Positions 890 through 62,890 of a DNA stretch of 64,000 nucleotides are shown here, in pieces. The stretch covers positions 25,173,667-25,237,666 of the forward strand of contig NC_054884.1 of assembly GCF_018320785.1 (NCBI RefSeq). The letters run 5' to 3'. Each line of letters opens with the position of its first letter. The first letter of the stretch is position 1. The notes beneath the pieces were generated by a model that was not told the origin of the DNA, searched no databases, and saw nothing but the letters and a program-made list of their open reading frames with translations. The DNA is from Cheilinus undulatus. Its lineage: Eukaryota > Chordata > Actinopteri > Labriformes > Labridae. Position numbers and translations under genes: made by a program.

Positions 890-3800
890 ATGTGTCTGAA
901 TCGTCAGTGCCAGAACGTCAGTGTTTTCGGCGTGCATGATTGTTCTGCAAAATGCAGTGGTCGAGGGGTGAGTACAGCACCTTTCCCTCCCTCTTTCCTC
1001 TTCATTTTGTGTGGTTAAAACCTGATGTGATTGCTCTTTATCTCAACCGCTCCCCTGTCGGAATTAGCTGTTTACTTAATATCCCATCCTCCCTCCTCAC
1101 ACAGACGCTCATTTTGGCTGTGATTTGCTCAAAATTCCCAATATACGCCAGTTAGGGAGCCATTACACAGCCTCACAATCAATCATCCTGGCTGCTGAAA
1201 GGTTCAATCAATTAGACATAATGGCTTCATTCATGCTCAGCTCTGAGTGCCATTCATCATACTCCCAGGCAGTCGTCCTTGTCCCCAAAATACTGTATAG
1301 AAATCTGAAGGCTGGGCTTTATTTGGCTAAAGCATGGCACACAGTTTGACTTTGAGAGAGGGGAGCATAGTTATTGGATTTTGCTTTAAATGTCGCCCAA
1401 CAAATGTCAATGGGTGGGCCTGTTGGGGATGAAATATGAGGCTTTATGGTGTTACCCTTAAATTGACTGGTAGAGGCTTTGACAGCTGAATCAAAGCTAG
1501 AGAGGAAACTCTTTATTGTCTCTTAAAATGAAACATCCCCAGTTATTATAATGCCATATTTGTTTGTCCAGCTCCAATTAAGACGTATCTATAAAGCTGT
1601 AGAGACAGTTTTACTCACAGAAATAAAAAGATGTTGCTCCTTGAGGAGACAGGGCAACCCTGCATGCTCAGATTAGATCAAGATGTTGCCTTGGAAAGAG
1701 GCCCTCACCTGCTCCACATTACCCTGCTGGGAAATCCTTGTAGAATTTACCATTCCTTTTTCTCTGCAGGACAGGAAGACAAGGAAAGAGAAATAAAAAA
1801 TGGAATAAGGCAAAAAAATAAGTTTTTATACCAGATGTCAATGCAATGTGAGGCCTTGCAGGGCTAAATTGTGGATGAATCTGCAAACTGTACTGCACAC
1901 AAAAGATCTGCACCCTTATTTGCAGACTTCAAGGCCTACTATGCACATACTTGTCCCTATACAAATAAACATTAAAAAACACACAATAAATTTACATTTT
2001 TTAACCTTTAAAAGCAATTTAAAGCAAAAACACTTTCATTTCTGATTCCTAAACACAGGCACTAGCTTCCTATTGAAAAATTCAATAGATTGATTGATGC
2101 ATTTCTGAAAAATAATCAGTAGATTAATCCACTCTGAAAATAATCATTAGCATTGTGTTGTTGCAGTCACTGATGCAGTGCATCCAGTTTCATAACAGAA
2201 CTCATTTGTCACCATTAGCGTTTGCTGCATATTAAAGTAGTGTACTATTAGGCATATGCTCAAATGTTGCATGAAAAAGACAAGCTGATGATTGCATTTT
2301 GGGCTCATCTAACAGGTAATTGCCCCTTTAATCTACTGCAGGTGTGCAACAACAACAAGAACTGTCACTGCGAGGCTCACTGGGCGCCGCCGTTCTGTGA
2401 CAAGGCAGGTTTCGGAGGAAGCGTGGACAGCGGGCCCATCAGATTAGCAGGTAAAGCAACAAAAGTTCACTAAAAGGCTGTTTCTGTTGCAGATTTTTTT
2501 CTGCTGCAGACCGCTGCTAGAAAGACAACACAGACAGCTAAATCTCACATTGTGTTGTTAAGTTAATCTGAGATCAAACCAGTAGAGGAAGAGAAAGAGT
2601 AGGAGACAAAAAGCAGCCCGCTACGTCAGAGGATCAACAAAATTGAACAAGACACATGAAGTAAACACCAACTGAACAAAGTATGGGATACGACAGTGAT
2701 CTGGCAAAAACTCATCAACCAAGTACAGCTTGATTTTTCAGCCCAGTTCAACTTGTCTAACATCATCAGTGGAGATGTTCTGTTCAATGTGAGCTATAAC
2801 AGCTGAGAAGGCTGATTTTAAGGAGGCTTAAATATCTGTCACTGTAGTTATTAAAAAGGAAAATGTATGCGATTATACTATAAATATTTATTTTCAATTA
2901 GCCCACCTTATTCCTAAGCTGCTTGATCTAAGTTTTCAGTAGTTGTGAGTTCACTCTCTGTTATCTATATCTAAGTTAGCTCCCGTAATGTGAGTTTTAG
3001 CAATGTTAGCTTTTGCAAACATAGCTAAGCTAACTAAGCTATGTAGATAAGGCATATACATGACTGACATAGCTGCTTTGTGAGCTTAGCTTTAATAATG
3101 TTTGCTGTGTAGTTATGTTAGCTCCTCTATATATAGCTAAGTTAGCTTCAGCAAGTTAAGCTGTAGCAACCCTTGCTTTAGCAATGTGAGCTTCAGCAAA
3201 CCTAACTGAAGCTAACTTAGCTTTGTATATAAGGTAGATATGTAGCATATGCAGCTGCTCTCTGAGCCTAACTTTAGCTATGTAAGCTACTTTAGGTATA
3301 TAGCTACATTAGCTACATAGCTTAGTAGCTAACAGAGCTACGGGAGCTACACTATCTGCATTAGAATGTTGTCATGGAGGATGAACTTTTTTTCTGTAAG
3401 TAGCCTGTTTATTCGACTTTATTAAACAATTTGTAATCAGGTTTTGCAGGTCAGTTTTGAAAGTTTTAGCCTGTATCCCCGTTCTGAGATACAAGGCATC
3501 TTAGATGAACGGTCTGTGAAAGTGGCTGTCAGTGATGTACAGTCTGCAGCCAGACTGCCTTGGGATAGTCTAAGAGTAGAAGTTTTTAAAATGCAATAAA
3601 GTGGACAGTTAATCATTAATAACTGTAGATTTGAGATTAATCATGATTCAAAATTTCCATAATTTGACGGCCTTCTAAAAATCTATCCAATTTCGTCCAC
3701 ATGCTGCAGAGGTTAGCTGTGCAAATTGCTTTTCCTGGTTTATGTTCTAACACTGCACCCCACAGAGGAGGCCTGCCTCACACTTTTTGGGCATGGTGTC

Positions 3801-9800: not shown

Positions 9801-11585
9801 TTCCCCAAAAAAATTGTAAAACTGAAGTGGGATAAGCGAAGAAGCAATCAAGGTGGATATCATGTGGTGTTAAAACGTGCATTTAAGTAATAAGAGAAGT
9901 TGGCCAAGTGCAGGACGATTATGGCTTTTTAGTATGATGAATGAATAACACGGCATTAATAGTGCAGAAGCTTGCCAGGAACAGAATGAACTTCATTGAA
10001 CTTAACACAATGCATGCGACTTCGGTAAAACATTTAATTTCGAAGTATTCATGTTTTGAATCTTCGGACCAGATTCGACACCCCAGTGAGGCCTTAGGTC
10101 GGCTTGTTTGGCTCCTTCCTCACTCATGTTTTAATTTCTCCCATATAGAGAAGATTGGGGCCGGGTAGAAGGACTACTATATTATGATATTAGTGTTTTA
10201 GAGAAGATTAAAACCACATGACATGTTCCTCTCATTGAAGGGGCATGAGGAGGGCTGGCCTTAAAGCCTGATGCTGCAGTTATTATCTGACTGAGAGTGC
10301 CATCTGGTGGAGATTGAAAGTAATTTGTAGTCCATTTGAAAAGTCCAAAACTGCTATTCAGGCCCTTTCCTTTCCACTTTTTCCTCATGGAAAAAAAAAA
10401 AAAACTGTGTAAAAAGTACAAGCTACCAAAGGTGGAGTACCAAAAAAGATGGTATCTCCCTTGTATTAGCGTCTTTAATGCAGCAAATGAAACGTGAAAA
10501 CCTGGCTGTTAATGTAATTTCAGTGTCAGCTCATTATTTCATTTTTTTTATCCTAGAGCTTTGGGTCCTTCAGACGGTGGCTCAGAAACTACTTATAGTT
10601 TGAACAGGTCATTATCGTGGCATACAGCATCTATATAAAGTAATAAATAAATCATTGTCAATATAATTTGGCGCTTTTTTTTGCCAAAAAAAAACCTCTT
10701 TAATGTAGTGAAATCAGAGGACTCAGAGAAAATGTTACTGAAGAGTATAAGTCAGGGGACGGATACAAAACATTTCCAAGGCACTGACCATAACCCAGAA
10801 TTCAGTTCAATCTTTCATCAAGAAATGGAAGGAATATAGCACATGTGTAAATCTGCCTAGATCAGGCCGTCCCCACAAATTGAGTGACTGTGCAAGAAGG
10901 AGACTAGTGAGAGAGGCCACCAAGACACCTATGACTTCTCTGAAGGAGTTACAAGCTTCAGCAGCTGAGATGAGAGAGACTCTGCATTCAACTGTTGCCT
11001 GTTTTTTCCCAGTAAAAGCTTTATGGGAGATTGGTAAAGAGAAAGCCACTGTTGAAAAAAACTCAAAATAAATCTCAAGTGGAGATTGTCACTTGGACAA
11101 AAGTTCTTTGGTCTGATGAGACCAAAATGGGGCTTTTTGAGCATCAGACAAGACCCTAAACACTGCACAACACCACAAACACACCATTCCCACTGTAGAG
11201 CATGGTGGTGGCAGCATCATGCTGTGGGGATGCTTTGTGGCAACCTTATCTATGTTTTGTGTCTCTAGGAGTTGGAGAAGCCCAGTCCTCCTCAAAAACC
11301 CCTTCCAGCTGATCCAAGGACCTCCCGTGTGCTTCGAAGCCCCTCTGTAGTCCAAGGACCTTCATCCGTTTGTGGCCCTGCAGCAGTATCTGTCTTACCC
11401 CGACCCGTTCGCCCTCTCCCACGCCCGAACAGGCAAGTTACATCCTCACATTTATTTAGAAAAACAACATATGATGCTTGCTTACCTTACTTTTTACTCT
11501 TTGTTCCTCTTCCAGACCCAGTCCCAAGCAGCCTCCGACACTACCAAAGCCTTGCATAATCGCCAACATCAAATACAGCAGCTGA
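890..11585 (+). CDS. adam12: ADAM12 (meltrin alpha), 3' part: seven last coding exons
   Basis: Membrane-anchored metalloproteinase-disintegrin; the window enters the gene in an intron, so the signal, pro-, catalytic and disintegrin domains lie upstream. Coding exons read as 890-967, 2342-2450, 3865-4000, 4077-4191, 5223-5468, 11269-11432 and 11516-11585; phases join without a stop to give 305 residues. Order: end of the cysteine-rich domain ([18 protein letters not shown]), an EGF-like module ([20 protein letters not shown]), a juxtamembrane stretch, a transmembrane helix ([20 protein letters not shown]), a basic stop-transfer [14 protein letters not shown], then a proline-rich tail with an SH3-type site [12 protein letters not shown] that I recall almost unchanged in mammalian ADAM12. 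The C-terminus is NIKYSS. Known role of the family: myoblast fusion and shedding of growth factors. The donor after 4191 (gtcact) is weak, and reading through it meets a stop at 4266, so a shorter tail is possible. The intron at 11433 uses a GC donor. ADAM19 is the main alternative; the tail motif and the DHX32 neighbour favour ADAM12. Confidence 0.93.
968..2341. other. ADAM12 intron with possible conserved non-coding segment
   Basis: Intron between the cysteine-rich and EGF-like exons. About 1100-1270 is free of simple repeats and has homeodomain-type ATTA and CAAT motifs (caatcaattagacataatgg), the look of a conserved enhancer, but nothing in the sequence proves it. The rest shows no recognisable feature. 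Confidence 0.3.
2940..3580 (+). repeat. AGCTA-core interspersed repeat, copy 1 (ADAM12 intron)
   Basis: Core about 2960-3360 made of degenerate short units such as ttagct, agctac and catagcta, followed by a non-repetitive 3' arm (gaatgttgtcatggaggatgaac, then tttattaaacaatttgtaatcaggttttgcaggtcag, then gttctgagat with cagtctgcagccagactg near 3560). The same arm follows the core in the other copies, so this is a family of dispersed elements, not a locally grown microsatellite. Confidence 0.75.
6680..7150 (+). mobile_element. Tc1-like transposon remnant, family A
   Basis: Degenerate 5' part of a Tc1/mariner-type element, sense orientation. Recognisable stretches are agaccaaaagatctcaaaaa with acatcatgccatcat, then cacaaatggggaaaacttag and ggaatgactggcttaccaaa, which I recall from the start of fish Tc1 transposase genes. 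The reading frame is broken many times. The same family lies in inverted orientation at about 48230-48720. Confidence 0.7.
8110..8500 (+). mobile_element. Tc1-like transposon remnant, family B (5' end)
   Basis: Begins with the typical terminal motif cactatatggaaaaaagta and continues with attcaggtgtttcaatcaga, caggtgtataaaatcaagca and agagctcagtgacttcaagt, the known 5' part of a fish Tc1 family. It is cut off around 8500. A longer copy of the same family is in DHX32 intron 2 (21845-23300). Confidence 0.75.
8641..9226. mobile_element. Non-autonomous DNA element with ~150-bp inverted repeats
   Basis: Left arm 8641 to about 8800 (cacaaaaagtaag ... tttggtagattatttctttg ... aaggaacatgcatttgtgg) is repeated in reverse complement at about 9076-9226, ending cttactttttgtg. 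The arms are about 80-90 percent alike by eye. The middle, e.g. gtgtggaagaaccatacaca, resembles internal sequence of a Tc1-like family with long terminal repeats, so this is a deletion derivative of it. Confidence 0.8.
9345..9560 (-). mobile_element. tRNA-derived SINE
   Basis: On the plus strand the tail comes first: gcctttattttagagacagg, then gagagtggggaatgatatgc, and the tRNA-like head near 9500-9540 (gcgcacaaactaaccacgtg, ggcactggtgcc), i.e. the head is on the minus strand. This arrangement is typical of an abundant teleost SINE. A second, head-only copy is at about 43417-43495. Confidence 0.7.
10700..11245 (+). mobile_element. Tc1-like transposon remnant ending just before an ADAM12 exon
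   Basis: Sense-oriented, frame-broken Tc1-type transposase sequence: ccatttccaaggcactgacc region, agatcaggccgtccccacaa, agtgagagaggccaccaagacac, tctttggtctgatgagacca and the hallmark gcatcatgctgtggggatgctttg ([13 protein letters not shown]). It ends about 25 bases before the exon at 11269, so the branch-point region of that intron probably lies in transposon-derived DNA. Confidence 0.8.
11433..11515 (+). other. GC-AG intron in ADAM12
   Basis: The exon ends cgcccgaacag and the intron starts gcaagt, then ends ctcttccag before acccagtcccaag. Phase 2 is kept and joins to the last exon ([10 protein letters not shown]). A GC donor with otherwise perfect agreement (CAG/GCAAGT) is the usual form of such minor introns. 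Confidence 0.75.
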
Positions 11586-12482: not shown

Positions 12483-12513
<31 letters not shown>

Positions 12514-13250
12514 GAATGTAAAGTGTTTTGATTAAATAATTTACTGGATTTGAATATGTGGTTCTCAGCTGGTCTTGTCTCAGGACCTACAACCAACTAT
12601 TTAATGAGAAATCATGACCCAAATTTCTGAAAATGTTCATTTTTTTATGAAAAATATTGCAGGGAGGATCTTAAATGGAACAAAAGATATGATTAAATAA
12701 ACAGACAGGACAAAACAAACATGTTTAAGAAGTGCATCATAACAGAAGTCCTGGGAGGACATGCATGCATACATTTTATTTCACTCCATTTTCTGTGACA
12801 GCCAAGGCCAGATTAACATGACTGTGCCCCTGGGCATCTGCTACCCAGTGAACCTACCAACGCTTAATGCCCTTGCTACCACAGAATCAACAGTAAAGAA
12901 CAGTATTCAGGCCAGTCAGTGCTTTAATATCCCCGAGTCAAGTCAAGAACACATGTCCAAATGTTGAATCTGGCCTTTTAAGTTTAAGTAAATACTGCTA
13001 CATAGCACTTGGGAGTGCCACTCAGTTAGAAGCAGCAGGCTATTCAAAGGGTCTGTGACCCATTGCTTTCCTCAACAGTGTCTGGGCAATGTCCAGTTGT
13101 CCTCATGCTTACACCAGCCTTGGTGGCAGCACCTGAATTTTGGTTGATTTTTAGAGATTTCAGGAATTTAACACATTCATAGGAAAGCCAGCTTCAGCTG
13201 TTAGCCCAGGGTGTGAAGTTGAATAAATCAAGTCTAAGAAAATAACTAAA
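11586..13250. other. ADAM12 3' UTR and intergenic DNA
   Basis: Sequence after the ADAM12 stop. No early AATAAA was seen; a candidate poly(A) signal AATAAA is at 12696-12701 (weak), and an ATTAAA at about 12532. Near 12555 begins a hAT-like end (gtggttctcagctgg). No coding exon recognised. Confidence 0.4.
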
Positions 13251-13264
13251 ACAAGACAGATCAT

Positions 13265-13860
13265 AGTGAGACACCGGATCTGTCAGAACAGAAACACACA
13301 GCAAAACTTTCAAAATAAAATTGGATTCTGGTTTGGATAAGGGTTTAGATCAGGGTTGGGCTAAATAAAAAGTGAAAAACCTGACCTGTAAAACCTGATT
13401 ACAACACATTTAATAAAGCCAAATAAATGGTCTACTTACAGGAAAAATCTTGTCCTCCATTAATTACACTCTAACATAGCTAATGTAGCTAAGGCTAAAG
13501 TTAACACAGCTACTTAAGCTACATAGATTACATAGCTACTTAGCAAAAATAGCTGAATCTAAAGCTAAAGAAGCTACTTTAGCTCTGTTTACTATGTAGG
13601 TCTCATAGCTACATAACTAACGTAGCCATTTAGATAACTTTGCTACTTTAGCTACTTTAGAATATGCTATGTTTCCTTAAGCTAGACCTGTTTTGGAAGT
13701 TTTTACACAAACAATGGCTCATTCTAGCTTTGTAAGCTTTCACTAAAGCTATTGTAGCTACATTGTCTTACATTCCCGTAAGGCAGCTAAAGCGAGCCAG
13801 CATTCGCCTACAAACTTCTAAAACGTGTCTATACATAATTTAATCCTGGATTAGACAGCT
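13265..13860 (-). repeat. AGCTA-core interspersed repeat, copy 2 (inverted)
   Basis: Core about 13470-13780 of tagct/agcta units. On the minus strand it is followed by the family's 3' arm: ggaggacaagatttttcctg, taaatgtgttgtaatcagg, and the end gttctgacagatccggtgtctcac. This is the only copy found in reverse orientation. Confidence 0.75.
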
Positions 13861-13971
13861 GATCTTTTCTTGGTTTTATTTATGAGATGTTGCTCAGTCT
13901 GTAATGTCTGCAGTTGAGTTATTTTATGAACTGTCAGACTGTATCTATCAACTAAGCACTTAGAGAGCGCA

Positions 13972-14195
13972 GACCTCCGCCATTAGCCCTATCTCACGAT
14001 AGTGAAGAATCCTTTAAAAAATTCCTGGATCCAGACGGTGATCCAGATCACTCCCAAAATCTAATCAGTTCTTCCTTATGCCATTTCTGTCATTTCCCGA
14101 AAATTTCATCAAATCTGTCCATAACTTTTTGAGTTATGTTGCTAACAAACAAACAAACAAACCCTGCTGATCACATAACTTCCTTGGCGGAGGTA
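13972..14195. mobile_element. MITE-like repeat with short inverted ends
   Basis: Bounded by agacctccgccatt and cttggcggaggt, an inverted pair. Interior includes atttcatcaaatctgtccat, aactttttgagttatgttgc and a (aaac)n run at about 14144-14160. I recall the same sequence as a common dispersed repeat in fish but cannot name its family. It lies between an inverted AGCTA copy and a detached AGCTA 3' end. Confidence 0.55.
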
Positions 14196-14244
14196 ATAAA
14201 GTTGAATTCTTTAAAAACTTCTGAAACATACCGTTAAATTATGT

Positions 14245-14340
14245 CCTTTCTGTTCTGACAGATGCAGCGTCTCACAATAGTGGTTTGCAAAAAGGGATGC
14301 CAGACATCTGGGGTCTGCAGCCAGACCACTTTCAACCAAA
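14245..14340 (+). repeat. Detached 3' end of the AGCTA-core family
   Basis: Reads tctgttctgacagatgcagcg, then ctcacaatagtggtttgca and ggggtctgcagccagaccac: the terminal segment shared by copies at 46620-46710 and 62815-62885, but without any AGCTA core. Confidence 0.6.
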
Positions 14341-17300
14341 ATTCCCTTGTTATCACAGAAAAAGAGAGAAATGATAAATAAATGGAGATATTAAAGCTTG
14401 GAGCTTCCCAAACAGGTTCCCAACCCACTTTTGGGTCCTGATCCACCAGTTGAGAACCACTGATTTACAGTGTTTTTGTTGGAATATTATGGTCAAGAGA
14501 GAACGGTAAAGCTTGAAATGGAAAGTTATATGACTATAAATCATTATTTGTTTGCTGGTGGCCTGGTAGATGGCATAGATTGGATGGCTGGGTCTCAAAA
14601 TAGTTGGAATCACAACTTTGATCTATGGTGTAATACTTAAACACAGCAGCTGTTTAAGTGACTGTGATAATAAAATAACCACTGGCAGACCATTAGACTT
14701 TCATAAGGAAGCAGTTTAAATGTTAACTTCTGTTCATTTCGATCAAAATGAACTATTACTGCGGTTAACATGTTTTTGAACAAATCAGTGGTTAACTGAT
14801 TCAAAATTTCTGCACATACAGTATTTCAGGAAAGGTAACAGTGAAGTGTCACTGATTCTGTTTCATTTAACAGTCCTTGAGGAGCTCACTTTGGGGATGT
14901 AGGGACACGTTTTAAATGGAGTTTGGAAGCAAAAAGGGGAGGATAAAACATACATCCCACGGAGAGGATCTTTGAAATATTGCTCTGCTTGAAGTCATCT
15001 GCGCTTTTGACTATTTCCCTGTGTGCTCAAGGAATTTTTGTGTTGTTTAATCATGAAATCAATGAAGACTTTCTCAAAGTTTCAGCTGTACAGATGTCAT
15101 TTAGGTACGCACACTTCTATAGGGTTCGTGTGAGGATTTTAAGGTGACATATCATACCCATTTTCCAACTTTTAACACAGTCCCTTGTGGGTCTGCATGA
15201 AATGTCTCTCCCATGCTTGGGTTGAAAAATAACATGGATCAGGCACCAGAGGTTGACCCTGTATAAACCAACTCCAAACAGCCTTTGTCTGAGTGGTCTA
15301 TTTTTGTGGGTGTCTCTTCAAATAAATGAGCTCTTTTTCTAAGATACAGCTGTGTAGTGAGAAATACCTGATTAGAGGCTGGTATTGTTATAATTGCAAC
15401 AAGGAGAGCAGATTCTGACTGGAAAATTAGAATTTTGTTCTTTCAGACATATAAAAACCACAGAAAAAGGACTGGGTTGGCTAATTTAACATTTCCTGGG
15501 TCAACAGATACTCCAGATACCTTAACACAGGTGCAAAAAAACTGAAAAGGGGGCCTCTAAATGATAGATACCCTTTGAAATCTGTAGTGGAAAAGGAAAT
15601 ATGCACTTATCATACAGTTATTCATTTTCTAGTTTTGTTACCCTTTTAATTTAGCTAATGGGGGATATCTTGAGCTCAACAGTGTGGTTCTGGAGGTAAA
15701 AGTCCCATTCAAACTCACGCCATCTGAGTGTAAAATGATGGTTATACTCCTGCAGAAAACACAAGTTCATACACTATGAACCTTGTTTAGATAAAACACA
15801 GTTATGTTGCCATCGAGAGTTAAAAAACTACACTACCCACAATCCTTGACTGTCTCACTGTAGCACTGTAATGTAGAAAAAATGTCTGTGTACAGTTTAA
15901 AAGTTTGAAAAGCTATCATTAGCAATGAATTTAGCGAATCACAATGGATTGTGGGAGTTTTTGGGATGCTTGTTGTCTCAGTTCCTGGATACAAAATGCT
16001 GATGTATGGAGGATTTGAACTGGGCAATTTAGTTCCAGAGCCAAATCCCTCATAAAAGTGGGCAGTCACTGTTGAGCTCTGTTAGATTTCCGGTCATTAA
16101 AGCATGTTTTATTCATCAGAATAAATTCCTTTTTTCTTTTTTTTTTTTTTACTTGATTGCAATGCAGCATATATACATTCACGTCAAAGCAACATTTCCT
16201 TTAAGCGCAGCTCTTGGTGAAATATGTAGGCTCGTATCTGACTTTTGTTACTTTTGATACTGTTCTATCTTTATAATACTGCACTACTTGTACATGCCTT
16301 GCTTTGTTTCTATGCTTTTCCAATGCTCTCTGTGTCCATGTGCAAGCAGGCAGTCACCCGACTGCACATTTTGTCCATCATATTTCTTGTAAGTTGTGTT
16401 ACAGGTGAACACACTTCCATGGAGAATGCTTTTTATATAATGATTGTTTGATACATCATATGTAAAGAAAAATCTTCAAATGTCAGCGTCTAGTTGTGGT
16501 ATTTTGAACACTCAAGCAGCATAAGTAAAACTGTTTTTTAACACAGATTATATTTGTAATTAATCATTGTTCTGGTTTTCTTTGCTTTTACACACTATGT
16601 ACATGTCTCTGTGAAGTTTACTATTGCTGGACAGTGAAATATTAAAACATTTCTCTTACCCCTGTGTACAGATTCTACATCTCCATGTAGAATCTGTATA
16701 GAGACTGCAGAGGAGGGTTCAGTTGTCTACAGCCTCGCATCAAAGCCTCGCTTCATGTAAAGAACACAATCAGAGGTGGAAAAAGTACACCACTATAGTG
16801 CACGAGGAAACATAAAGTTACTCTGGTTAAAATTACACAAGATAATATCAAAAGTATTTTGAGTTTACTTTAAGTACTGAGTAGCTAGAGAATAGATCTC
16901 CAACCAGATTGCTCAGGTAAAGTCACACCTCTGTAATAAAGTTAAATGCACAGCAAAATTGACAGTGTTAAATCTTATAGCTTTAAGTTTATCATTTTAA
17001 AATGCATCTATACTGGTCCAGCTACATGTAGTTAAACTAATATTTTAAAGTGATAAATGTTATACAACAGAGCTGCAGTTACTCTTGAAAATCCGTGGCA
17101 AGTTGGGTCTCCACCTGCAAGAATCAAACAGAGAGTCAGCCTAATAGCAAGGCAATGTATACTAATGCACAATGTGTCTTCAAGGAGCCCCCACAGTCCT
17201 AGACAGGAGCTCTAACTCAGTGGATAACTTCACTCATAGTGTCTCACATCGAAAAAAAATAGCAATCCACTGAAAAAGTTACCAAAAGAACCCAAGTAGG

Positions 17301-17450
17301 GATCACTGTACAACAGGCAGCCTCCAGACACAACTAAACACATATAAAACACATGTAAACACTCTGCCCAAGGGCATGATGGGGAACTCTGCCCACAAAT
17401 CCCGAAAAATTCAAGTCAGTCTGGCTGCAGACTGACATCAACCCTCACAG
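14341..17450. other. Intergenic DNA between ADAM12 and DHX32
   Basis: No exon recognised. A hAT-type end (ccagttgagaaccactg) is at about 14446-14462. A T-rich run is at 16130-16150. The stretch from about 16774 (agaggtggaaaaagtac) resembles the end of a hAT-type repeat that is better preserved at 18829-18995. Confidence 0.4.
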
Positions 17451-17460
17451 ACCAGTCATC

Positions 17461-17912
17461 TGAGGTCGCACTCACACTAGGCCATCCGTACCGTGCCTGG
17501 GCCCGTTTCAGCCTAAAGTCTGGTACGTTAGGCCAGTGTGAGTGCAATCGTTGTGTGCTTCACCGCGGCATGCTTCGAGGCCCCGGCACAGAAGGACGAG
17601 GTGGGCCTAGGCACGGCACGGATGCAAATGAAGGAGCACAGGCGCGGATGCCAGATCAGATATCGTATAAATCTATTGCTATTTTACAGCCTAAAAATCA
17701 ACACTTATGTATACTGAGTCATCAACACGTATAAGTTCATCAACGGTGGATGCTTCATGTGATGACGTCGGCACGTGACGTATCCGTGCTCAGGCCTGGA
17801 TGCGTTGAGCAGTGTGAGTGCGGGCCAAAGGGGGGACGGGGAGGGGGTCAAATGGGCTTTTGCATGGTAAGAATACGACACGGTACAGATGGGCTAGTGT
17901 GAGTGCACCCTG
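17461..17912. mobile_element. Non-autonomous DNA element with ~40-bp inverted ends
   Basis: Left end ggtcgcactcacactaggcc then atccgtaccgtgcc; right end, reverse-complemented, gggtgcactcacactagccc then atctgtaccgtgtc. The body is GC-rich and CpG-rich relative to its surroundings (caccgcggcatgc, gacgtcggcacgtgacgta). No transposase reading frame. Target duplication not clear. Confidence 0.7.
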
Positions 17913-17934
17913 AGACACCATCCACTGCTGTAAT

Positions 17935-18600
17935 TTGCCAGTATGTTTTAGGTTTTTTTGTATTAAGTTTTATTCATAGCCAAAGTCTGGCTTTTACAGT
18001 CATGAAATAACCACATTGCACATATTACAGACAAAGAAAGATTTCATAAATAAAACAGAGATAAACAAGGTTGGCTCACCTTAGCTCCTTTAGCTTTAGC
18101 TTTTTTTTTTTTTTAGCTAAAACATTATTACACTAACTACTTGATTAACAATACTACAGAGGCCAATGTAGCTAAGTTAGCTTAAGCAACGTGACTTTTA
18201 TCAATCATAGCTAAAGCATGTAGCTTACATAGCAGCTTTGCGAGCTTAGATTTTGCTAAATCAGCTATGTAGCAATGTTATCTACATAGTTTGTTCAGCC
18301 AATAGAGCTAAGTAAGCTATTATTGCTACATTAGAATGTTTTCATGGAGGTTGAGCTTTTTCCCCATAAGCAGACTGTTTACTAGCTTTTTTAAACATTT
18401 TGTTATCAGATTTTGCATGTCAGGTTTTTAACTTTTAATCTTTATTGCCTTCACCCTAACCCACACACTTAACAGGAGTATAAATATGACTTTTTTTTTA
18501 GAGTTTTTGCATGTATTTCTGTTCTGAAAGAGATTTAAATTAACAGTCTGTGAGAGTGGCCATCAGAGATGTGCCGTGTGCAGCAGGACCCCTCTTCCAG
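17935..18600 (+). repeat. AGCTA-core interspersed repeat, copy 3
   Basis: A 5' arm (attcatagccaaagtctggc, atgaaataaccacattgcac, aacagagataaacaagg) precedes the core (18080-18330), followed by gaatgttttcatggaggttg, a taaacattttgttatcag segment and the end gttctgaaagag. The 5' arm matches the one in copy 4 near 45810-45905, showing that the element has conserved sequence on both sides of the core. Confidence 0.75.
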
Positions 18601-41161: not shown

Positions 41162-44100
41162 ATGCTGACTTCTATCCAGCTGATCTTTTTGCTTTTTTGG
41201 ACGAGCATTGGCTCAGCTGATGCAGAGAGAATCTTTCATAATCGGGACCATTCTGACGTGCAGAACCTAAACTTGCATCAAGCTGAGGTTATAAACGACA
41301 AGTACTCAGCAGAGGTAAAAAAAAAAAAACAGCATTCAGTTTCACTAAATTCCAACTCTTATAGTTTGATCTTTGGAGGTTTAAATGTAACACTCCTCTT
41401 GTTTTATAGTTATTTCTCTCTAGATATGGATTCATTAAACCGGTGAACTGGGAGGAGGTCCAGTTTGAGGATGTTGACACATCATTCACTGAAGACCTCC
41501 TGGATGACTTTCAGGGTAAGATCCAAGAAGGAACCTCACTGCATCGTTCGAGAGATTCTCCTCGTGTTGGGGATCCGGATGGCGGAGACACTTTCACAGA
41601 GAGCCAGGCGTTTATTTCAGCACTTGAGGAGTTTCAGAGGGTGTCAGGCCTCCCAGTCACTGGCGTGTTTGATGAGGCCACAAAGGAGGCGATGAACAAA
41701 CCGAGGTGTGGAGTCCCTGACAAGGAGATTCATGAAGAACTTGAGAGCGGTAGTAACTCAGACATTGAGGACAGTTTTAGTGAGACTTTTAATGAGACTG
41801 AGACTAACAGCACAGTGAGTGAAACAACCAGTGATGCTTCATTTAGTGCCGAAAACACCTTTAAAGATGACACATTCAATTTTAATGACACGGAAAGTGT
41901 CCTCACGAGCATTTCCAATGACACCAGCAGTAATTACACTGATGATTCTGATGCATTTGATCCCATTTCAAATAAAACGTCTCCAACTGATATCAGCTCA
42001 ACCAGGAAAACAGTAAACATCAGCATGGGCCTTGATCAGAGTAAAGCAGTGCAAAGTAGAAAACGTCACCTGGCCGCTCTCGTATCCAGAAACAGGCAGA
42101 AGAGAGATTTGAGTGACACAGGTTACATGGCTTTTTGTAAGAGGGTGCTGAAGTGGAGGCTGATAGGAGAAGGCTACAGCAGTCAGCTGTCCATTGAAGA
42201 CCAGAGGTACATCTTCAGACTGGCCTTCAGGATGTGGAGCGAGGTGTCTCCGCTGGAGTTTATAGAGGATACACGCTCTCCGTTGGAGGATGTGGACATC
42301 AGGCTGGGCTTTGGTACAGGTGGGTCTGACTAAGGCTTTAAAGACGTATTACAAAGTATGTGACCAAAGAAAACAGTTGTTCAGTTTGAAGATAGTGGAC
42401 TCAGGATGTTTGAGGGGCAGGGGCAAAAATGATAAAAAAGGCACCTGCAATAGGCTGTAGGGCACCAGCCCATAAGTTTAATCCATGAAAAGGGCCCCAA
42501 AAAGGGCATTTTTAAAAATAAATGTTTCCACTAAAAAGGTACAAAAGAGGGAGTATGTAGAATTTTGCCCACTTAAAGGGCTCCTTAGAGGGCACTTTTC
42601 TGAAAATGTTCCCACCGTGAAGAAACCAAATGTAAATTTTGTCCACTAAAAGTGTTCCATAGCAGGACCTTTCAAAATTTCCTACCAAGAAGCAAAGGGG
42701 AATTTTGTTTAGTTTTGCCCTCTAGGAAGACATCAAAAGGGAACTTTGTTTAATTTTCCAAACCAAAAACAACCAAAGAGCACACTTTTTCAAAATGTTC
42801 CCAATGAAATGGAACCAAAGCAGGCACACTGTGAAATTTTCCCTTCTAAGTAGGTTCCAAAGAGGGCCCTTTTCAAAATTACTCCACTAAAAAAGTACTA
42901 AAAAGTGCAGGGTTATATACTGCCTATTGAAAAGGCTTTATATCAAATTTTAAGGGGACTTTACCACATTTATCTTCTATTGGGGAATCCAAAAAGGGTA
43001 CTTTCACAATGTTTTTTCACACATTAGGGTATCATGGAGGTTGCAGGTGACTGCCCCCTCTGCCCCCCTTTGTTCACTAGTGATCTCAGCTTTTAAAGGA
43101 AAGGTACTTTATTTATAGAGCACCAGCTATACATATAGCAATTCAAAGTGCTATACAGAGTCAAAAACAAGGAATTTAAAAAAGTGTAACTGCTTTGAAA
43201 TGTGACCTTTTAGCTAGATGATGTGTTTGCAGGAGTGAGTATGCATCAAAGAATCCATTCTACTTTTTCTCTCTGCATTTTCCCATTACAATAAGAGAAC
43301 AGGTGAATAATACGTCAAATAATAGCAAAATATATGATGATACACTGTGGACTCAGGATATATAAGAAGCAGGGGCAAAAATTATTTAAAAATTATTATA
43401 AATTTTTTTACTAAGGGCCACAGGCTGGATTCGTACCCAGATCGACCATGGTGCGCGCCTAAAACCACTCAACCACCTGCGCGCTCCCGTAATTAGTTTT
43501 TAATTCCTTGTTAAGATTGAACTTTTTAATTATGATTACACCAACTTTACCTCTGTAGTAAAACAGAGATAAACAGGAGACGATGACTTCTTTTACCAAG
43601 GAGCTTATGGCACATTACTGCACCCTAGAATAGTGGTTCTAAACTGGAGGGTCAGGATGCAAAATTGGAATTCAGAGCAACTTTTAGGGGGTTGCAAATA
43701 TGTTCTTTGAATAAAAGCATCTTAAAACTATTCCAAACCTACTTGTTTTGTTATGTGTCTTTGATTTGTCTCATGTGTTCTACTGTATGAAGTCCAAACT
43801 GCACTATTTCTTATCAGAGAGTATGATTGGTTAATAGAATAACAGAAATTTGGGATGCAATTTTTCATTGAGGACCTGATAGAGGGTCCCGAGACCCTCC
43901 CAGCTGAGAACCACTGCCTTAGAGGGCACTTAATCATGTATTGTCCACTAGAGGGGCACCCTAGAGAGCTCTTTATTATATTTTGAAGACACTTAACCAA
44001 ATTTTGCTCTCGACAAGTGCTATCCAGAGGGCTCTTTATCCCATATTGTCCACTGGAGGGCACCCTAGAGGGCATTTTGTCAAATTTTGTCCTCTTACAG

Positions 44101-45616
44101 TGCATCCTAGGGGGCTCTTAAGCACATTTTGTCTACTGAAAGGGCACCCAAAGCTTTTGATTATGTTTATCTATGATAGGGGCATCCAAGAGGGCACTTT
44201 TATGGTGCTTCTTAAACATTAGGGCACAAGAACCTCCTCTGAACCAAGCAGTGATTTGATATCAGTTTGCTTTACTCAGAAACATTCATAGAAATGTCCT
44301 TAAATGGCCACAACAGATAGGCTATTTACTTTTACTCCATTTAGGTTTATTTCAGATCCTTACTTTTCCACTTCAAGCAAGAAGCTCCATTTTTACAATT
44401 ATTTTGCACACAAGTGTCTGGGCTTCTACAACATAAATGAGAGAAGAATATGCTCCATGTCTGCAAATAGAGAGGGAATGTTGAGTGCCTACGCAAAACT
44501 CTGTTTCTTCTCTTTCTCACCATCATTAGGCCTGTTTTTATTCTACACAGGAAGGCACCTGGGATGCAATCAGAGGTTCGACGGCACTGGTCAAGAATTC
44601 GCCCATGCCTGGTTCTTGGGTGACATACACTTTGATGACGATGAACATTTTACCGGTCCCAATGCTGGCAGTGGAATCAGCCTCCTCAAAGTAAGAAAAC
44701 AACAGTTTGATTTAATAAACCAACAGCCACAGCTCATTTAAGTCTTACTACCGTTTTATTCTTTCCTGTTCTAGGTGGCTGTTCATGAGATCGGCCATGT
44801 TTTGGGCCTCCCTCACATCTACAGACAAGGCTCTATAATGCAGCCCAGTTATCTGCCCCAGGAGTCTGGCTTTGAGATGGACTGGATGGACAGAAAGGCC
44901 ATACAGCACCTCTACGGTAACAGCACCATCTGGTGGACACAGACACATAGACCTAGAGGGGGTAGATGGAGGATTATTCCCATACAGAAATAAACAGAAT
45001 AACAGAGAAAAAAATGTATAAAATGTTCTTGTTTTTGATCCAGGGGGCTGTAAAGGCCGATTCAACACAGTGTTTGACTGGATCAGAAAGGAAAAGACGC
45101 CCCATGGGAATGTGGTAATTCGTTTTAACACCTATTTCATGAGGGACGGCTGGTACTGGCTGTATGAGAACAGAAATAACAGAACACGGTATGGAGATCC
45201 AGTCGCTCTGCAAATTGGCTGGCGAGGAATCCCCATGGATGGAGTGGATGCTTATGTTCATGTGTGGTCCAGGAAAAGAGATGCTGTTTACTTCTTTAGA
45301 GGTGAGAAAGGATCATCCTCATTTATTAATACAGTGTGTGCTGATATGTGTTGTAGCTTGTCTCTATGGTGAGATATTATACATTAGAGGCCTAAAGATA
45401 TATTAAGCCAATGCTTTTTTCACCACAGGTACTCAGTTTTGGAGGTACGACAATGACAATGATCAGGCATTCAGACAGGACCCTGAAGGGCACCGCTATC
45501 CCAGGTTAATCTCTGAAGGTTTCCCGGGGGTCTTTAGTCCCATTGACACAGCATTTTATGACAGGAGAGACTCCCTCATCTACTTCTTCAAAAACACTCT
45601 TGTAAGAAGACATTCT

Positions 45617-45658
<42 letters not shown>

Positions 45659-47484
45659 TTCAAATGTTGGAGAGGGATCTGGCTGAAGACAGCAGATCTC
45701 AAACGCCCCCTCTTGCAGACCACTACTATGAGACACCACCTCTGTCAGAACAAAGTGCTGTAAGTTGCAAGTGCAAAGTTTGAGAAGATTTGTTTTTTAA
45801 TTCATCTTTATTTATCATTTAAGTCTGGTGGTTACATTAATGAAATAACCACACTGCTAACATTAAAGCCAAAGCAACATTTCATAGATTAAACAGAGAA
45901 AAAAGGTCAGCGGTCTAACCCAGGATTAATTATGTATAAACTCATCTTAGAATTACTTACACACTCAGTGGTTCGCTTTAGCTCAGCTAGCTTTAGCTAA
46001 AGGTAACATAGCTACACTAACAACATAATTAAAGTTACTAAATAAGCCAATATAGCAACGTGAGCTCTACCAAAGGAAGCAAAAGCTAACATCGCTACTT
46101 AGGTACTGTGGCTACATAGCTGCTTTATGAACTTAGCTTTAGCTATGTTAGCTTCATAGCTCTGTTGTTTAAAGCCAAGTAGCTGCACGAGCTATTTAAT
46201 TAACATTACGACTTAAGCTGATGTAGCTACTTTAGCACTACTTGCTTCAGCTAACCTAACTAAAGGTTACATAGCTAATGTAGCTATGTACCAAACATAA
46301 GGAATAAATTAAAAACAGCTTAATGTAGCTATTGTAGCTTTGGCAAATGTAGCATAAGCTGAAGTAGCTTTGGCTATGCTAGCTATGTGACCTATGCTAG
46401 CTATGTGAGCATGTATAGCTTATGTAGCTAACAGCTTGTAAGCTTTGACTTTAGCTGCGCTAGCTGCATTAGAATGTTTTCATTTAGGACTAGCTTTTTT
46501 CCTTTTAACAGGCTGTCTACTCTGCTTTATTAATGATTTGTAATTAGGTTTTTCAGTACCGTACCCTATCCCTGGAATTTCAGCTCAGTTTTATTTTGAA
46601 AGTTTTAAATGATTTCCTGTTCTGACAGAAGCAGTGTCTCATAGTTCAAGTCTGCAAGAGGGGGGATCTGAGATTTGCAGTCTGTAGCCGGACTGTCTTG
46701 AAATGTTGGGCAGTTGAGGGCAAAGAAAGTACCTCTCTTGATTTTATGGCTTACATGTGAAAATCTTACACAAAAATTAAAATCTGTGTAAGTGTATTTA
46801 CACATAGACTTTGGGATTTCATATGAGAACTGATTGACCAATTAAGAGATTAAATAAAATGAAAGTGGGCAGATGCACTTCCATCCCAGCCCCATGGGCA
46901 TCCCAAGTTTTTGCCCTGGGCCCCTTTAAATTTGGATACAGCCCTGGGCTAGAACTACAGTTTCCTTCTGTGGTTTTTAATTGAACCATGTTAGTTTGTA
47001 GTACAAGTTGACATACAATAAGGAAAGTCTTAGAGAGAACAAAGCCTAAGTTAATTCTCTTGTTTCTCAGCTTTATATCCATGCAAACAAACCTGCTTCA
47101 CATCTCCTGTGATTTGTTTGTGTGTCGTAATTAAATTGATTTCCACAAAAGAGGCAAAACAATTATCTGTTCAAACAGGTGTATGCCTTCGACGTGGAAG
47201 CCAACAGCTTGGCAAGAGGCTTCCCCAGAAACATCAGAGATGTTTTCCCCGCAGTGCAGAGTGGAGACCATCCAGATGGCAACATTGACGCTGCCTACTT
47301 CTCTTACACCCACAATGCCATCTTTCTACTCAAGGGCACGCGCTTCTGGCAGGTGGTGGGCAGCCGAAATCGCTGGCGCCGGCCCTTTCTGCCGCGGAAT
47401 GGCCTGCTGCCACACAAGGAGGTGGATGAGCAGTGGTTTGACATCTGTAATGTTCATCCCACGGCACTCAAACTCACACGGTGA
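41162..47484 (+). CDS. mmp21: MMP21, matrix metalloproteinase 21
   Basis: Secreted zinc endopeptidase needed for left-right axis formation in vertebrates (known for the family). Coding exons 41162-41314, 41410-42319, 44551-44690, 44775-44916, 45044-45301, 45429-45601, 47179-47484; 2082 bases, 693 residues plus stop, against about 569 in human. Order: signal peptide ([21 protein letters not shown]), prodomain with LFLSRYGF and a peptidoglycan-binding-like helix ([23 protein letters not shown]), cysteine switch PRCGVPD (Cys151), a long acidic Ser/Thr/Asn-rich insertion, furin site RNRQKR (278-283), catalytic domain with [11 protein letters not shown] (405-415) and Met-turn SIMQ (421-424), then hemopexin-like repeats with [21 protein letters not shown] and a closing Cys (DICNVHP). 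Acceptor 41409 was chosen over 41423 because only the former keeps the frame and restores LFLSRYG. Extra length is mostly the insertion in exon 2. TATA box upstream at 41102, poly(A) signal at 47884. Confidence 0.96.
43417..43495 (-). mobile_element. tRNA-derived SINE head
   Basis: Minus strand has a tRNA-like A box (tggttgagtgg) and B box (ggtacgaatcc) 40 bases apart, then cctgtggcccttag. The long acceptor side is missing, so it is a SINE remnant and not a tRNA gene. Confidence 0.7.
43628..43920. mobile_element. hAT-type MITE
   Basis: Inverted ends agtggttctaaactggaggg and (reverse complement) agtggttctcagctgggagg. The 8-base flanks ccctagaa and ccttagag match at 6 positions, fitting an aged 8-bp hAT target duplication. 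Confidence 0.7.
45615..45657 (+). repeat. (CTTT)n microsatellite in MMP21 intron 6
   Basis: About ten CTTT units starting 14 bases after the exon 6 donor (gtaaga at 45602). Confidence 0.9.
45661..46710 (+). repeat. AGCTA-core repeat, copy 4, with terminal inverted repeats (MMP21 intron 6)
   Basis: The most complete copy. The left 92 bases (45661-45752) are an imperfect inverted copy of the right end (46619-46710): both, read in the same direction, give ctgacagaggtggtgtctcat / ctgacagaagcagtgtctcat and then a gtctgcaagagggg, gagat-tgc, cagcc-g(a)ct-t series. Inside: 5' arm 45790-45960, AGCTA core 45975-46470, 3' arm 46470-46618. No reading frame of note. Confidence 0.75.
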
Positions 47485-53082: not shown

Positions 53083-53090
53083 GCTTGTTT

Positions 53091-54470: not shown

Positions 54471-54479
54471 GGTCTTTTA

Positions 54480-55640
54480 AGCAAAGTCAAAGTTTTCTGT
54501 TTTTACATACTGAGAACCATTTGATAAATAAAAATGAGAAAAAGGGTCAGAATCCTAATCTGGGATTAAAGACCTATTTTAGAAGCAGTTACACAAACAG
54601 TGGTTTGCTTTCATTGGTTATCTTTAACTAAAGCTAACAAACCTATGCTAGCTACATAATCATTGTTACTACATATGCCAATGGAACTATGTTAGCTTTA
54701 GCAAGGTGAGCTTTGGAAAACATAGCTAAAGCTAACAAAGCTAGCTAACATATCTATGTTGCTTACATAGCTGCTTTTTGAGTTTAGCTTTAGCTTTGTA
54801 AGCTGCAAAGCTCTGTTATCTACTTCCAAGTTAGCTTAAACAACGTAAGCTCTAGAAAATGTAGCTAAAGCTACTTAGATAGCATAACCACATAGCTAAC
54901 ATAGCTGAATTGTGAGCTTAGCTTTAGCTACATGTATCTATTATTATAGCTAGGTTAGCTTTAGCAGTGTGAGGTTTAGCAAACGTAGCTAAAGCAAACT
55001 TGGATAACATATCTACATAGCTGCTCTGTGAGCTATGTTTTAGCTACCTCAGCTACATAGCTCTGAAAAGTAAGCTTTTGAAAACTTTATGTTGCTACTT
55101 AGATAACATATCTATGTAGCTTACATAGCTGCTTTGTGAGCTTAGTTTTTGCTGTGTTTACTATATATGTCTGTTCCCTGTAGCTAACTTGGCCTAAGCA
55201 ACGTGAGCTTTAGAAAACTGAGCTAAAGCTTAGTTTGCTATTTAGCTAACATAGATGCATAGTTTACATAGCTGCTTTGCGAGCTTAGCTTTTTGCTCTG
55301 TTAGCTACATAGCTCTGTTAGCTACATGGCTCCACTATCTGTGTAACTTACACAGCTTACACAGCTAATGGAGCTATGTAAGCTGTGCTTGCTGTGAATG
55401 TTTTAATGAGAGACAAGCTTTCCTCCTGTAAGTAAACTGTTTATTCTACTTTATTTAACATTTTGTACTTAGGTTTTGTAGGTCAGGTAATTAACTTCTT
55501 GCTTTTGGTATCCTAACCCATATCTTAACCCTAAATGGGAGTTTAATCTGATTTTATTCTGAAAATTTTAGTATTTCCGTTCTGAGATATACGGCGTCTC
55601 AGATGAACGGCCAGTCTTGATAGAAACAGGGTCTTACCTG
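54480..55640 (+). repeat. AGCTA-core interspersed repeat, copy 5 (longest core)
   Basis: Core about 54610-55400, the longest of the six, with a higher-order pattern: gctttgtgagcttagctttagc recurs roughly every 110-160 bases, alternating with agctaacatagctacatagc. The 3' arm gaatgttttaatgagagaca and gttctgagatatacggcgtctcag follows. Confidence 0.75.
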
Positions 55641-55899
55641 GTTGCAGGCCAGCCCACAGATACTTTAGCTGGGTCCCGTAAAGGCCCTGAAAATGGTCCC
55701 CCTTAGAAGTAATTTAGTATGGTGGCTGTGACTTCTTAGAAGAATGCAAATCCAAAGCGCTTTGCATTAACAGAAAACATAGATGCAAAAGCTATGACTG
55801 AAAGACTAAAGTAGCTGTAACATTAATGCAAACAAGTGAAATAAAACTGCAAGAAGCTGCAACACAACCTCAAGAGGCTGAAGACAAAAACATAAGATG

Positions 55900-56350
55900 T
55901 GTGTTTGCACATTTTGTCTATTTACAATGATTTAACCAGGAAAACCTCATTGAGAATAACAAGATTGTTTACAAGATTATTCTTGCCAAGATAGGCAGTA
56001 GCATATTTAACAGACACAAAGACACAGACATAAAGAACAGAGCAATTACAATAACAGAACAACCAAATCCTGAGTCACAGTCTTCAACCTGATGCATCTT
56101 CCTATAATGCGTTCAGTCTACTTTTAAAAAGATTTAAAGGCATCAGGTCGGAGATAAGGTCTCCTTTAGTAAATTCCAGACTGCAGGAGCACCTGAAACT
56201 CTTTTTGTCCATTTTAAGACAGATTTTGGGAACAGATTGTAAATGTAAATTGAGTGACTGAGTCACGAAGTGAAGATTGTGGCTCAAGACACTTTTCATA
56301 TGCATAAAATTACACAAGTTTGAGAAAAGCAGATTGAGTTTAGCTTATGA
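55900..56350 (+). repeat. Dispersed repeat fragment
   Basis: The stretch aaccaggaaaacctcattgagaataac ... cttgccaagataggcag is familiar to me from many fish genomes as a dispersed repeat. I cannot assign a class. Confidence 0.4.
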
Positions 56351-56434
56351 TTAAGGATAGTCAATGATTTAGCTCATGATTGGTCAAAGAAGGCAACTCA
56401 CTCGATCACACACACTACAATGGTGAGTTGAGGA

Positions 56435-60300: not shown

Positions 60301-60690
60301 CTTCCTTTTTTCTTCTCTCTTTGCCCTCACATAAAGACGGCGGGATTAAAAGAGAAAAACACTGACTGATGCCTTCACGACTGCCTCTCAATTTCACATT
60401 CAAATCAATATTTCAAAAGCTCTTATCATCAAATACTTTCCAGGCAAAGTGCTCCTCACTAAGTATCTTTAATGTCGAGGAGAGGTAAATAGGATTTGGA
60501 ATTCACAAACCCTGGCTTTCATGCTCTCATTATACCGTGAAGAAAAAGGAACTCTGTTTTTGTGATGGGAAAGTGTGTAAGTCTGCGGTAAAAACAGCAT
60601 TTCAGACACAGAACAAGTATATTTATGACTTTTTCTCCTTCCTTGCTTACATGTGTAAGCAGGAGTCACTATGCCAAATGGAAATAGTAC
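57391..60690. other. Intergenic, little recognised
   Basis: No exon recognised. An (AAT)n run is at about 58157-58178. The remainder looks like unannotated AT-rich spacer. Confidence 0.4.
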
Positions 60691-60990
60691 AGTAATTACA
60701 CGTCTTCTCTTGAGAATAGTCCATGTATCACACAAGCTAATTTGAATGAGGAATCTAAATCATGCAAGTGTAATTAAGCGTTGTGTAGTCTCATGCATAA
60801 TGCAGCCTGTAGGTATAAGCACTAAATACCTGGTAAACAAATAGAGGGGGTGTGGGGGATGATTTGTTTGTCATGCCACAAGAAATGTGACTAATAAAAG
60901 CAGCCGGCCCTTTCATTCGCCTCCGTATGCGGTGAGAGGAATTTCTCCCACCAGCCCAGTCATAAGCTGAACCTTGCCCTTTGCCTAAGG
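60691..60990. other. Candidate conserved non-coding element
   Basis: Repeat-free, with several ATTA/TAAT and AATAAA-type motifs (aatcatgcaagtgtaattaagcg, catgcataatgcag) and CpG-bearing segments (gcctccgtatgcggtgagag). No splice or coding signal. Offered only as a lead. Confidence 0.25.
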
Positions 60991-61319
60991 AGCAGTTTTA
61001 GAGACAAAACAAGGAGCTTTCTAATGCTGTCAGTCTGAGTGGCAGCTGCAGGTTGAGGGGGGAGGGACGAGGCTGTCCTACGCATGGCCACACAGAAGTG
61101 ACCGCCTGGACCCCAAGTCTTCAAATTTGAGTGAAAGGAAACATACGTGCCACGTTTCAGCTTTGTACTGGGTTTGTTTACTTGACTTTTGAGGGGTCAG
61201 AGCACAAAAAGACTCTCTGTTTTACCTTGTACTGTTTTTAGCTTTCCAGACTGCTTCAGTTGGACTCTAAGGAAGTAGTCCCACTGACAATGAAATCATT
61301 TGGCTTATCAAGAATGTGT

Positions 61320-61740
61320 TCAGAGACAGCAGATAAAAATCCTGTTGGATCTCTGGAGCTCAGTCAGAGAGACCATCGAGTTCTTATCACCTCTCTTACT
61401 CCCCCAGTTGCTTAGTTTGGCCGGGCGACCATCTCTTGGAAAAGTCTTGGTTGTGCCAGACTTCTTCCATTTGAGAATTATGGGGGCCACTGTGCTCTTG
61501 GGAACCCTCTGAGCTCTGCAGGCGGTTCCTTTGACCTCACGGCTTGTTTTTTGCGCTGATATGCATTGGCAGCTATGAGGCCTTTTATAGAGAGGTGTGC
61601 GCCTTTCCAAATCATGCTAAATCAATTTCATTTACCACTGGTGGACTCCAGTCAAGGTGTGGAAACATCTCCGCAAAGACCCAGAGAAGTGGGAGGGAAC
61701 CTGAGCTAGATTTCAAGTGTTTTTGCAAAGGCTCTAAATA
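61320..61740 (-). mobile_element. Tc1-like remnant, same family as 36509, antisense
   Basis: Plus strand shows ggagctcagtcagagagacc, cagttgcttagtttggccgg, cttcttccatttgagaatta and ggccttttatagagaggtgtg, the reverse complement of the transposase N-terminal region present in UROS intron 3. On the minus strand ILKWKKSGTTKTFPRDGRPA (61440-61500) is readable. Both ends are worn away. Confidence 0.8.
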
Positions 61741-62199
61741 ATGCCAATATGATATTTCATTTTTTTATCAATACAAAATTACAGACTAAGCAACATTTCA
61801 TGAATTAAACACACACACAAAAAAACTGGTACTGGGAGGGAAATTTGGCCCTGGCATTTTTGGCTTGAACCAGCCTAACACAATGTGTTGAAATGGCATG
61901 AATGTTCCCTTGCCCCCCTTATGGATGTGTAGCACTACCGCAATTTTTTTTTCCCAAACTGTGACATAGCTCTGAGGTAATTGTCATAGACATAAGTAAA
62001 GGTGTGTTTTCTCTCTTTTTTATTACTTGTGATCAGAGGTGAGTTTGGTTGACAACAGCCAACTGTCATTATAAGGGAAACAACCAATGGGCCGCTCCCC
62101 CTGCTCTACGGGCCAGTGATTAGCAGAAAAAAACCCCTCATACCAGCCCCAAAATTCATTGGCTCACAAGGAAAATACCTGGTGTGCCAGATTGCTCGT

Positions 62200-62890
62200 C
62201 CATTCCTGGGTCTAATCCAGGATTAAATTAGGTTTGGACCCGTTTAAGAAGAAGTTATGCAAAGTTGCTTGCTCTAGCTTTGTTCGCTTTTGCTAAAGCT
62301 AGCATAGCTATGCTAACTAAGTAATCAGTGTTACTATGTAAACCAATGAAGCAACATTAGCTTTAGCAATGTCAGCTTTAGCAAATGTAGCTATTAATAA
62401 TATAGCTACGTTTGCTAAGTAGGTGAGGTAGAAACATTTCCTTTAGAAAACACAGCTTAAGCTAACATAGTTCTATTAGCTGTTGCTTTAGCTATGTAAG
62501 CTAAGTGGCTACTTTATGTGAATAAATTATGGATTTATGAGATTTAAAGGGTGTAATGGGTGTACAGTCTTCAACTATGCAGGTTTATTAGCTAACATGC
62601 TTTCATTAGCTTTAGCCTAAGCTGTGTTTTCCTGGAGGACAAGCATTTTTTATGTAAGCACACTGCTCGCTTTTCTTTATTAAACATTTTGTAATTATTT
62701 TTTGCGAACTTTTTACTTTTGGTATCCTCACGTTTACCTTAACCATTACCCTAACCCTAACTGGAGGTTTAATCCGCTTTTATTTTGAAAGTTTTACCAT
62801 ATATTTCTGTCCTGACAGAAGCTGCGTGTCACAGTAGTGGTCTGCAGCAGGGGGCGTCTGAGATTTGCAGCAAAACTGTCTTGAGTTTTC
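62200..62890 (+). repeat. AGCTA-core interspersed repeat, copy 6
   Basis: 5' arm taatccaggattaaattagg (also in copies 4 and 5), core 62270-62620, 3' arm catttttt...aaacattttgtaatt and end ctgacagaagctgcgtgtcac ... gtctgcagcagggggcgtctgag. Confidence 0.75.

Follow-up and report, generated by a model that had tools for sequence, protein, structure and literature searches.

A dispersed AGCT-cored repeat in Cheilinus undulatus with the features of an old, MITE-like DNA transposon family

MITEs that carry internal tandem repeats are known from several animals, among them Xmix/Xstir and miDNA4 of Xenopus and pearl/CvA of bivalves (PMC9659126). Xmix (T2-A1) with Xstir is a non-autonomous element with terminal repeats in which an internal segment has been amplified (PMC6004289, PMC9659126), and the family described here shares this design. 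However, Xmix inserts at TTAA, carries an AGGRR tip, and is put with Kolobok (PMC6004289), whereas our family has other tips and 8-bp target-site duplications of varied sequence. In miDNA4 of Xenopus tropicalis, likewise, a satellite motif arose inside a MITE and spread along with it; miDNA4 is put under Tc1-mariner (PMC9659126), unlike a family with 8-bp duplications. The pearl/CvA elements are non-autonomous class II elements tied to satellite repeats (PMC9659126), but their hosts belong to another phylum, and the likeness to our family is one of description.

Two further systems are similar in part. The foldback transposon Tetris of Drosophila virilis is also non-autonomous and has tandem repeats that seed longer arrays. 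Its repeats measure ~220 bp and lie within the terminal inverted repeats (PMC4079207), whereas our family has its array in the middle, flanked by unlike arms; the foldback (Tetris-type) arrangement, with tandem repeats placed in long terminal inverted repeats, was not found. The CMITEs of Acropora corals are MITEs whose conserved interior is unusual and of unknown origin, but they are tied to piggyBac-like elements and themselves form tandem arrays (PMC2872659), while our array is internal. The family thus adds to a known kind and is perhaps already catalogued; a named fish family of such build appeared neither in the literature searched, which included few subscription journals, nor in the accessible part of a fish review (PMC7599744).

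We analysed a stretch of 64,000 nucleotides from Cheilinus undulatus (hereafter the window), in which a preliminary description had recognized six copies of a repeat with an AGCTA-rich core. All six are real. A BLAST comparison of the window with itself linked six regions mutually at 65-93% identity, through their arms and core, and the AGCTA density maxima fell at the six places named before. End models derived from genome copies, one for the 5' side and one for the 3' side, matched all six. A 3' arm pattern matched three times in the window (copies 1, 3, and 5) and a core pattern four times (copy 1, copy 5 twice, and copy 6), versus no match to either in 100 shuffles. The further claim that every copy has both arms held only in part: arms and core link all six, but both ends are visible in copies 2, 3, and 4 only. 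The features are as follows; for copies 2, 3, and 5, how far they extend was judged by reading the tips in the sequence.

2994-3562, forward strand: copy 1, with core, 3' arm, and 3' tip (...CTGCCTTG); core matches run from 2994 and the right-end model covers 3352-3562
13244-13251, no strand: left target-site duplication of copy 2, AACTAAAA, identified by eye
13252-14333, reverse strand: copy 2, with both tips (5' tip at 14333, 3' tip at 13252), interrupted
13957-14194, no strand: nested insertion in copy 2 (~240 bp); column 145 of the left-end model lies at 13956 and column 151 at 14195
14334-14341, no strand: right target-site duplication of copy 2, AACCAAAA, 7/8 match to the left one, identified by eye
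17411-18596, forward strand: copy 3, with a piece of 5' terminal repeat at 17411-17467, the remainder from ~17909, and the 3' tip near 18596
17468-17908 (approximate), no strand: nested insertion in copy 3 (~440 bp), with inverted tips of its own, GCACTCACACTAG / CTAGTGTGAGTGC
45662-45669, no strand: left target-site duplication of copy 4, AAATGTTG
45670-46700, forward strand: copy 4 (locus L001), 1031 bp, both ends present
45670-45752, forward strand: 5' terminal inverted repeat of copy 4; 45678-45752 matches 46692-46618 inverted, at 80%
45976-46470, forward strand: AGCT-word core of copy 4, with the limits used in the core self-comparison
46618-46700, reverse strand: 3' terminal inverted repeat of copy 4, from the self-comparison of the window
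46701-46708, no strand: right target-site duplication of copy 4, AAATGTTG, a perfect match to the left one
54503-55619, forward strand: copy 5, with 5' arm from model column 202, core, 3' arm, and 3' tip
61778-61811, forward strand: separate 5' arm piece of copy 6, model columns 201-234
62208-62883, forward strand: remainder of copy 6, with the end of the 5' arm, core, 3' arm, 3' terminal repeat, and tip

Two of these copies, both interrupted, had been misread. A "detached tail" at 14245, previously taken as evidence of transposition, belongs to copy 2 itself, being the 5' terminal repeat separated from the rest by the nested insertion; model columns 145-151 are present on either side of this insertion, and the 3' terminal repeat of copy 2 lacks its inner part. 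Similarly, the true start of copy 3 lies ~520 bp further left than first placed, behind the insertion of ~440 bp. The core of copy 5, at ~770 bp, is the longest in the window, and its 3' tip lacks the inner terminal repeat. Copy 6, also interrupted, spans 61778-62883 overall. Neither the end models, nor would-be duplications, nor a relaxed model run upstream revealed an intact 5' end for copies 1, 5, and 6: the sole convincing piece was 61778-61811, and for copy 1 neither 5' arm nor 5' terminal repeat was detected. To the eye, the terminal repeats suggest two subfamilies, with copies 1, 3, and 5 in one and copies 2, 4, and 6 in the other. The nested insertion of copy 2 has GACCTCCGCC near its start, CAAA repeats in its middle, and GGCGGAGGTAATAA near its end; it looks rather like an RTE-type tail.

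The family extends across the whole genome (1,173,462,691 bases on 46 contigs). With copy 4 as query, 68 matching stretches were obtained; scoring covered the best 40 out of 4,730 first-look candidates. A terminal-repeat pattern (35 places, at most 3 mismatches) matched 931 times (448 + 483) and the 3' arm pattern (29 bases, at most 3 mismatches) 1,420 times (723 + 697); the reversed control of each gave 0 matches. The first 100 places of each pattern were listed, and among the matches listed both patterns combined reached every contig from C1 to C24. Family size can be put, fairly but roughly, at several thousand copies because the terminal-repeat pattern catches just one end in the window and the 3' arm pattern three of the six copies there. 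Arms differ from their consensus by 16.7% on average (median 16.8, range 9.8-27.3; 101 alignments outside the window record); thus, the family is old. No viral contig matched the terminal-repeat pattern exactly.

Genome copies also define the order of parts. From the 5' end inward come the tip, GAGAGGG followed by GTCTGGCTGCAG, a terminal repeat of ~80 bp, and a 5' arm that reaches to about column 300; the AGCT core, the 3' arm, the second terminal repeat, and the 3' tip TGTCTTG follow. The 5' tip (GAGAGGGGTCTGGCTGCAG) and the 3' tip read inwards (CAAGACAGTCTGGCTGCAG) are near-mirror images, not exact ones, and the two arms are unlike each other. The tip consensus ends at one and the same place in 48 5' ends and 31 3' ends, the outermost base being G in 26 of the former and, read inwards, C in 20 of the latter. 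It had been noted that copy 4 repeats its 3' end inverted at the left. The inverted match stands, but it does not set copy 4 apart: terminal repeats occur at both ends in many genome copies. The distance from GTCTGG to GTCTGG between the two tips ranges from 680 to 1484 bp in 23 loci rather than being uniformly short, and since core length varies, we loosened the strict definition of a MITE accordingly.

The strongest proof of transposition is the target-site duplication, which the preliminary description had suggested looking for at the true ends with a length of 2-9 bp and which proved to be 8 bp long. We scored it by rule in the 23 loci whose ends both begin at column 12 or before (L055, the same place as L010, was dropped). 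The paired flanking 8-mers were identical at 0.522 of positions versus 0.296 after permutation, and none of 5000 permutations scored as high. At least 6 of the 8 positions match in eight of the 23 loci, where 0.75 loci were expected and no permutation gave more than 5; the other 15 match at fewer than 6. When the register was shifted by 1-4 bases, identity dropped to 0.23-0.36, and a ninth flanking position matched in 6 of 23 loci, about background. The register itself came from a scan of 441 combinations of offset and length, in which the top rows agree on a single register. An earlier, hand-picked set of 21 loci, which left out L017 and L033, served for permuting nine combinations: the two in the leading register gave identities of 0.554 and 0.519 (p = 0.0000), the seven others 0.27-0.38 (p from 0.03 to 0.76). 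The duplications vary in sequence between loci, and a TTAA target site of the Kolobok (Xmix) type was not found. In copy 3 no 8-bp duplication was seen, the 8-mer at its 3' flank being absent before its 5' tip; age may explain this and the weak duplications at the 15 loci.

Taken together, these results make it very probable that the repeat is an old, non-autonomous, cut-and-paste DNA transposon family, MITE-like and ~0.7-1.5 kb long, with terminal inverted repeats of ~80 bp and target-site duplications of 8 bp. The view that the copies are transposed DNA elements with terminal inverted repeats was thus borne out. The element itself appears to lack a transposase gene. An autonomous element, with hAT the likeliest source, would have provided the enzyme in trans; this enzyme would cut at the tips and re-insert the element with 8-bp staggered cuts, and the family would later have died.

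hAT-derived MITEs are small and non-autonomous and have 8-bp target-site duplications, and the hAT tip motif is YARNG. Our family departs from them in that its tips fit this motif partly (5' GAGAG and 3' CAAGA, each at 4/5 positions) and in that no partner was found in the sample searched. We regard hAT as the likeliest superfamily, though unproven, because hAT domains abound in the genome and KDZ is almost absent: at least 150 hAT-domain matches from 765 candidates versus a single KDZ match from 9. It is quite possible, if not probable, that the family derives instead from a different superfamily that also makes 8-bp duplications (P/THAP9-like, Zisupton/KDZ, Merlin, or a Mutator variant); it would have moved by cut-and-paste all the same. 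Duplications of 8 bp are common to several superfamilies, terminal repeats of ~80 bp are long for hAT, and one KDZ-domain place does exist in the genome. Against this, besides the imbalance in domain counts, no element ends occur within 1.5 kb on either side of the KDZ place, although a long element could extend beyond that distance. The autonomous partner with the same termini that had been envisaged did not appear at this place or at 8 loci taken from the hAT-domain places (1.5 kb on either side, a small and short-range sample), the best matches of element ends there being at chance level (E 0.5 and 0.28). Among 149 typed hAT places, the one nearest to any of the 100 terminal-repeat matches listed (of 931) is 12.4 kb away. 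Seven loci were read for a partner (L031, L034, L038, L040, L041, L052, and L056); no transposase-like ORF was seen by eye in the first five or within the window copies.

We then turn to the core. In 82 AGCT clusters totalling 27,441 bases (the window plus all loci except L001, the L010/L055 place entering twice), the spacing from AGCT to AGCT is strongly uneven: 9 bases is commonest (398 times, 6.1 times the mean), followed by 15, 30, 6, 21, 17, and 18. Cluster length varies from tens of bases to ~1.3 kb. The longer units differ by copy, measuring ~139 bp in copy 5, 137 in L023, 74 in L057, and ~300 in L047. Tandem Repeats Finder reports small pieces of core alone, with periods of 17, 18, and 15, probably missing most of it since the units are too diverged. 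The core consists of AGCT words whose spacing is often 6, 9, or 15 bases, set inside longer units that differ by copy, and it lengthens or shortens in single copies, presumably by slippage or unequal exchange.

That the core expands as a minisatellite, as the preliminary description had it, is clearest in L057. Here a 174-bp self-match at offset 74 has 97.7% identity, versus arms that are 18.9% and 17.4% off consensus; this array therefore grew long after insertion. Self-matches of at least 60 bp at more than 80% were found in 5 of 56 cores among the matches listed (L052, whose array is not AGCT, was dropped). Most of the longer self-matches lie at 65-80% and are about as old as the family, strong growth after insertion being clear in L057 only. 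Other minisatellites also occur at the ends: in L052 the terminal repeat is followed by a CTCC-rich minisatellite with a self-match at offset 84, and in L056 by a CCCTAAA-rich one behind which an AGCT core lies.

Could the core be functional, its AGCT words serving as transposase-binding or hairpin-forming sites required for movement? We consider this unlikely. AGCT columns are indeed better conserved than other core columns (0.78 over 44 columns versus 0.69 over 82, in 41 sequences), but the alignment may favour repeated words and the measure is biased to the terminal repeat, by which half of the 60 loci were picked. The earlier suggestion that the core can fold fared unevenly when compared with dinucleotide shuffles: four of the six window cores reach z < -2.5, but cores 3 (z -0.94) and 4 (-1.65) are not clearly beyond their shuffles and one of two flanking control segments is (z = -3.42), while the two arms of copy 4 are not. 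Moreover, a self-complementary repeated word folds trivially. Foldability is suggestive only. Less likely still, and quite doubtful in our judgement, is that the core acts as a hairpin-forming, self-expanding module that aids spread, through transposase loading or replication stalling, and that a single family so seeds local clusters and many independent birthplaces of minisatellites throughout a genome.

It is very improbable that the AGCT array spread as a minisatellite of its own and merely happens to adjoin unrelated transposon ends. The wide range of core lengths and the growth of some arrays alone would suit such an origin, as would 7 of 30 loci chosen by terminal repeat alone: six of them (L031, L034, L036, L038, L041, and L051) fall under the core cut-off and L052 passes it through its other array only. 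In L038 and L041 the 5' arm is present and the AGCT core is absent within the stretch examined. However, the other 23 of the 30 pass the core cut-off (22 plus L055, which equals L010), and three of the seven misses, L034, L036, and L051, retain weaker AGCT stretches. The start of the core aligns across loci together with the 5' arm; it is therefore ancestral and was carried by the element.

The distribution of copies is not quite even. Among the matches listed (237 places), copies separated by 2.5-60 kb form 12 pairs versus 4.3 expected (Poisson p = 0.0017), a hint of clustering and no more, since the lists are ranked by mismatch and the expectation is taken from separations of 1-6 Mb. The window is dense, with 3 arm-pattern matches versus 0.077 expected per 64 kb, and was chosen for its copies. 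Local hopping or regional retention could explain the clustering. Such crowding is what a single local segmental duplication of the six window copies would also give, but this reading is refuted by the separate target-site duplications, which differ between copies 2 and 4, and has against it the strong divergence among copies, the inversion of copy 2, and the matches on all of C1-C24 among those listed.

In an old transposon family with this build, every copy pairs its own clock, the arms, with its own array, the core. A large set of dated insertions that all began as the same sequence could thus reveal when minisatellites arise from a transposon, and how fast. For those annotating this genome, at least part of its AGCT/TAGCTA-rich "minisatellite" is the interior of a transposon.

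Several other observations were made in the window. No Rfam family matched at gathering thresholds. Frames of a matrix metalloproteinase gene occupy 41410-47484, with Matrixin in 41410-42333 and hemopexin at 47140-47484 (above cut-off) and 45022-45372 (below cut-off); copy 4, between the hemopexin frames, probably sits in an intron. Fragments of a Sleeping-Beauty-type transposase HTH (PF25787) occur at 10751-11071 and 61320-61616, at 24.1 and 24.9 bits against a cut-off of 43, and the second lies a short way before the separate 5' arm piece that belongs to copy 6. A second dispersed repeat forms an inverted pair, 36654-37127 and 61347-61774, with 71% identity over 487 bp. Finally, in the 3' arm of the family, for instance at 62740-62775, CCCTAACCCTAAC stretches resemble telomere repeat words.
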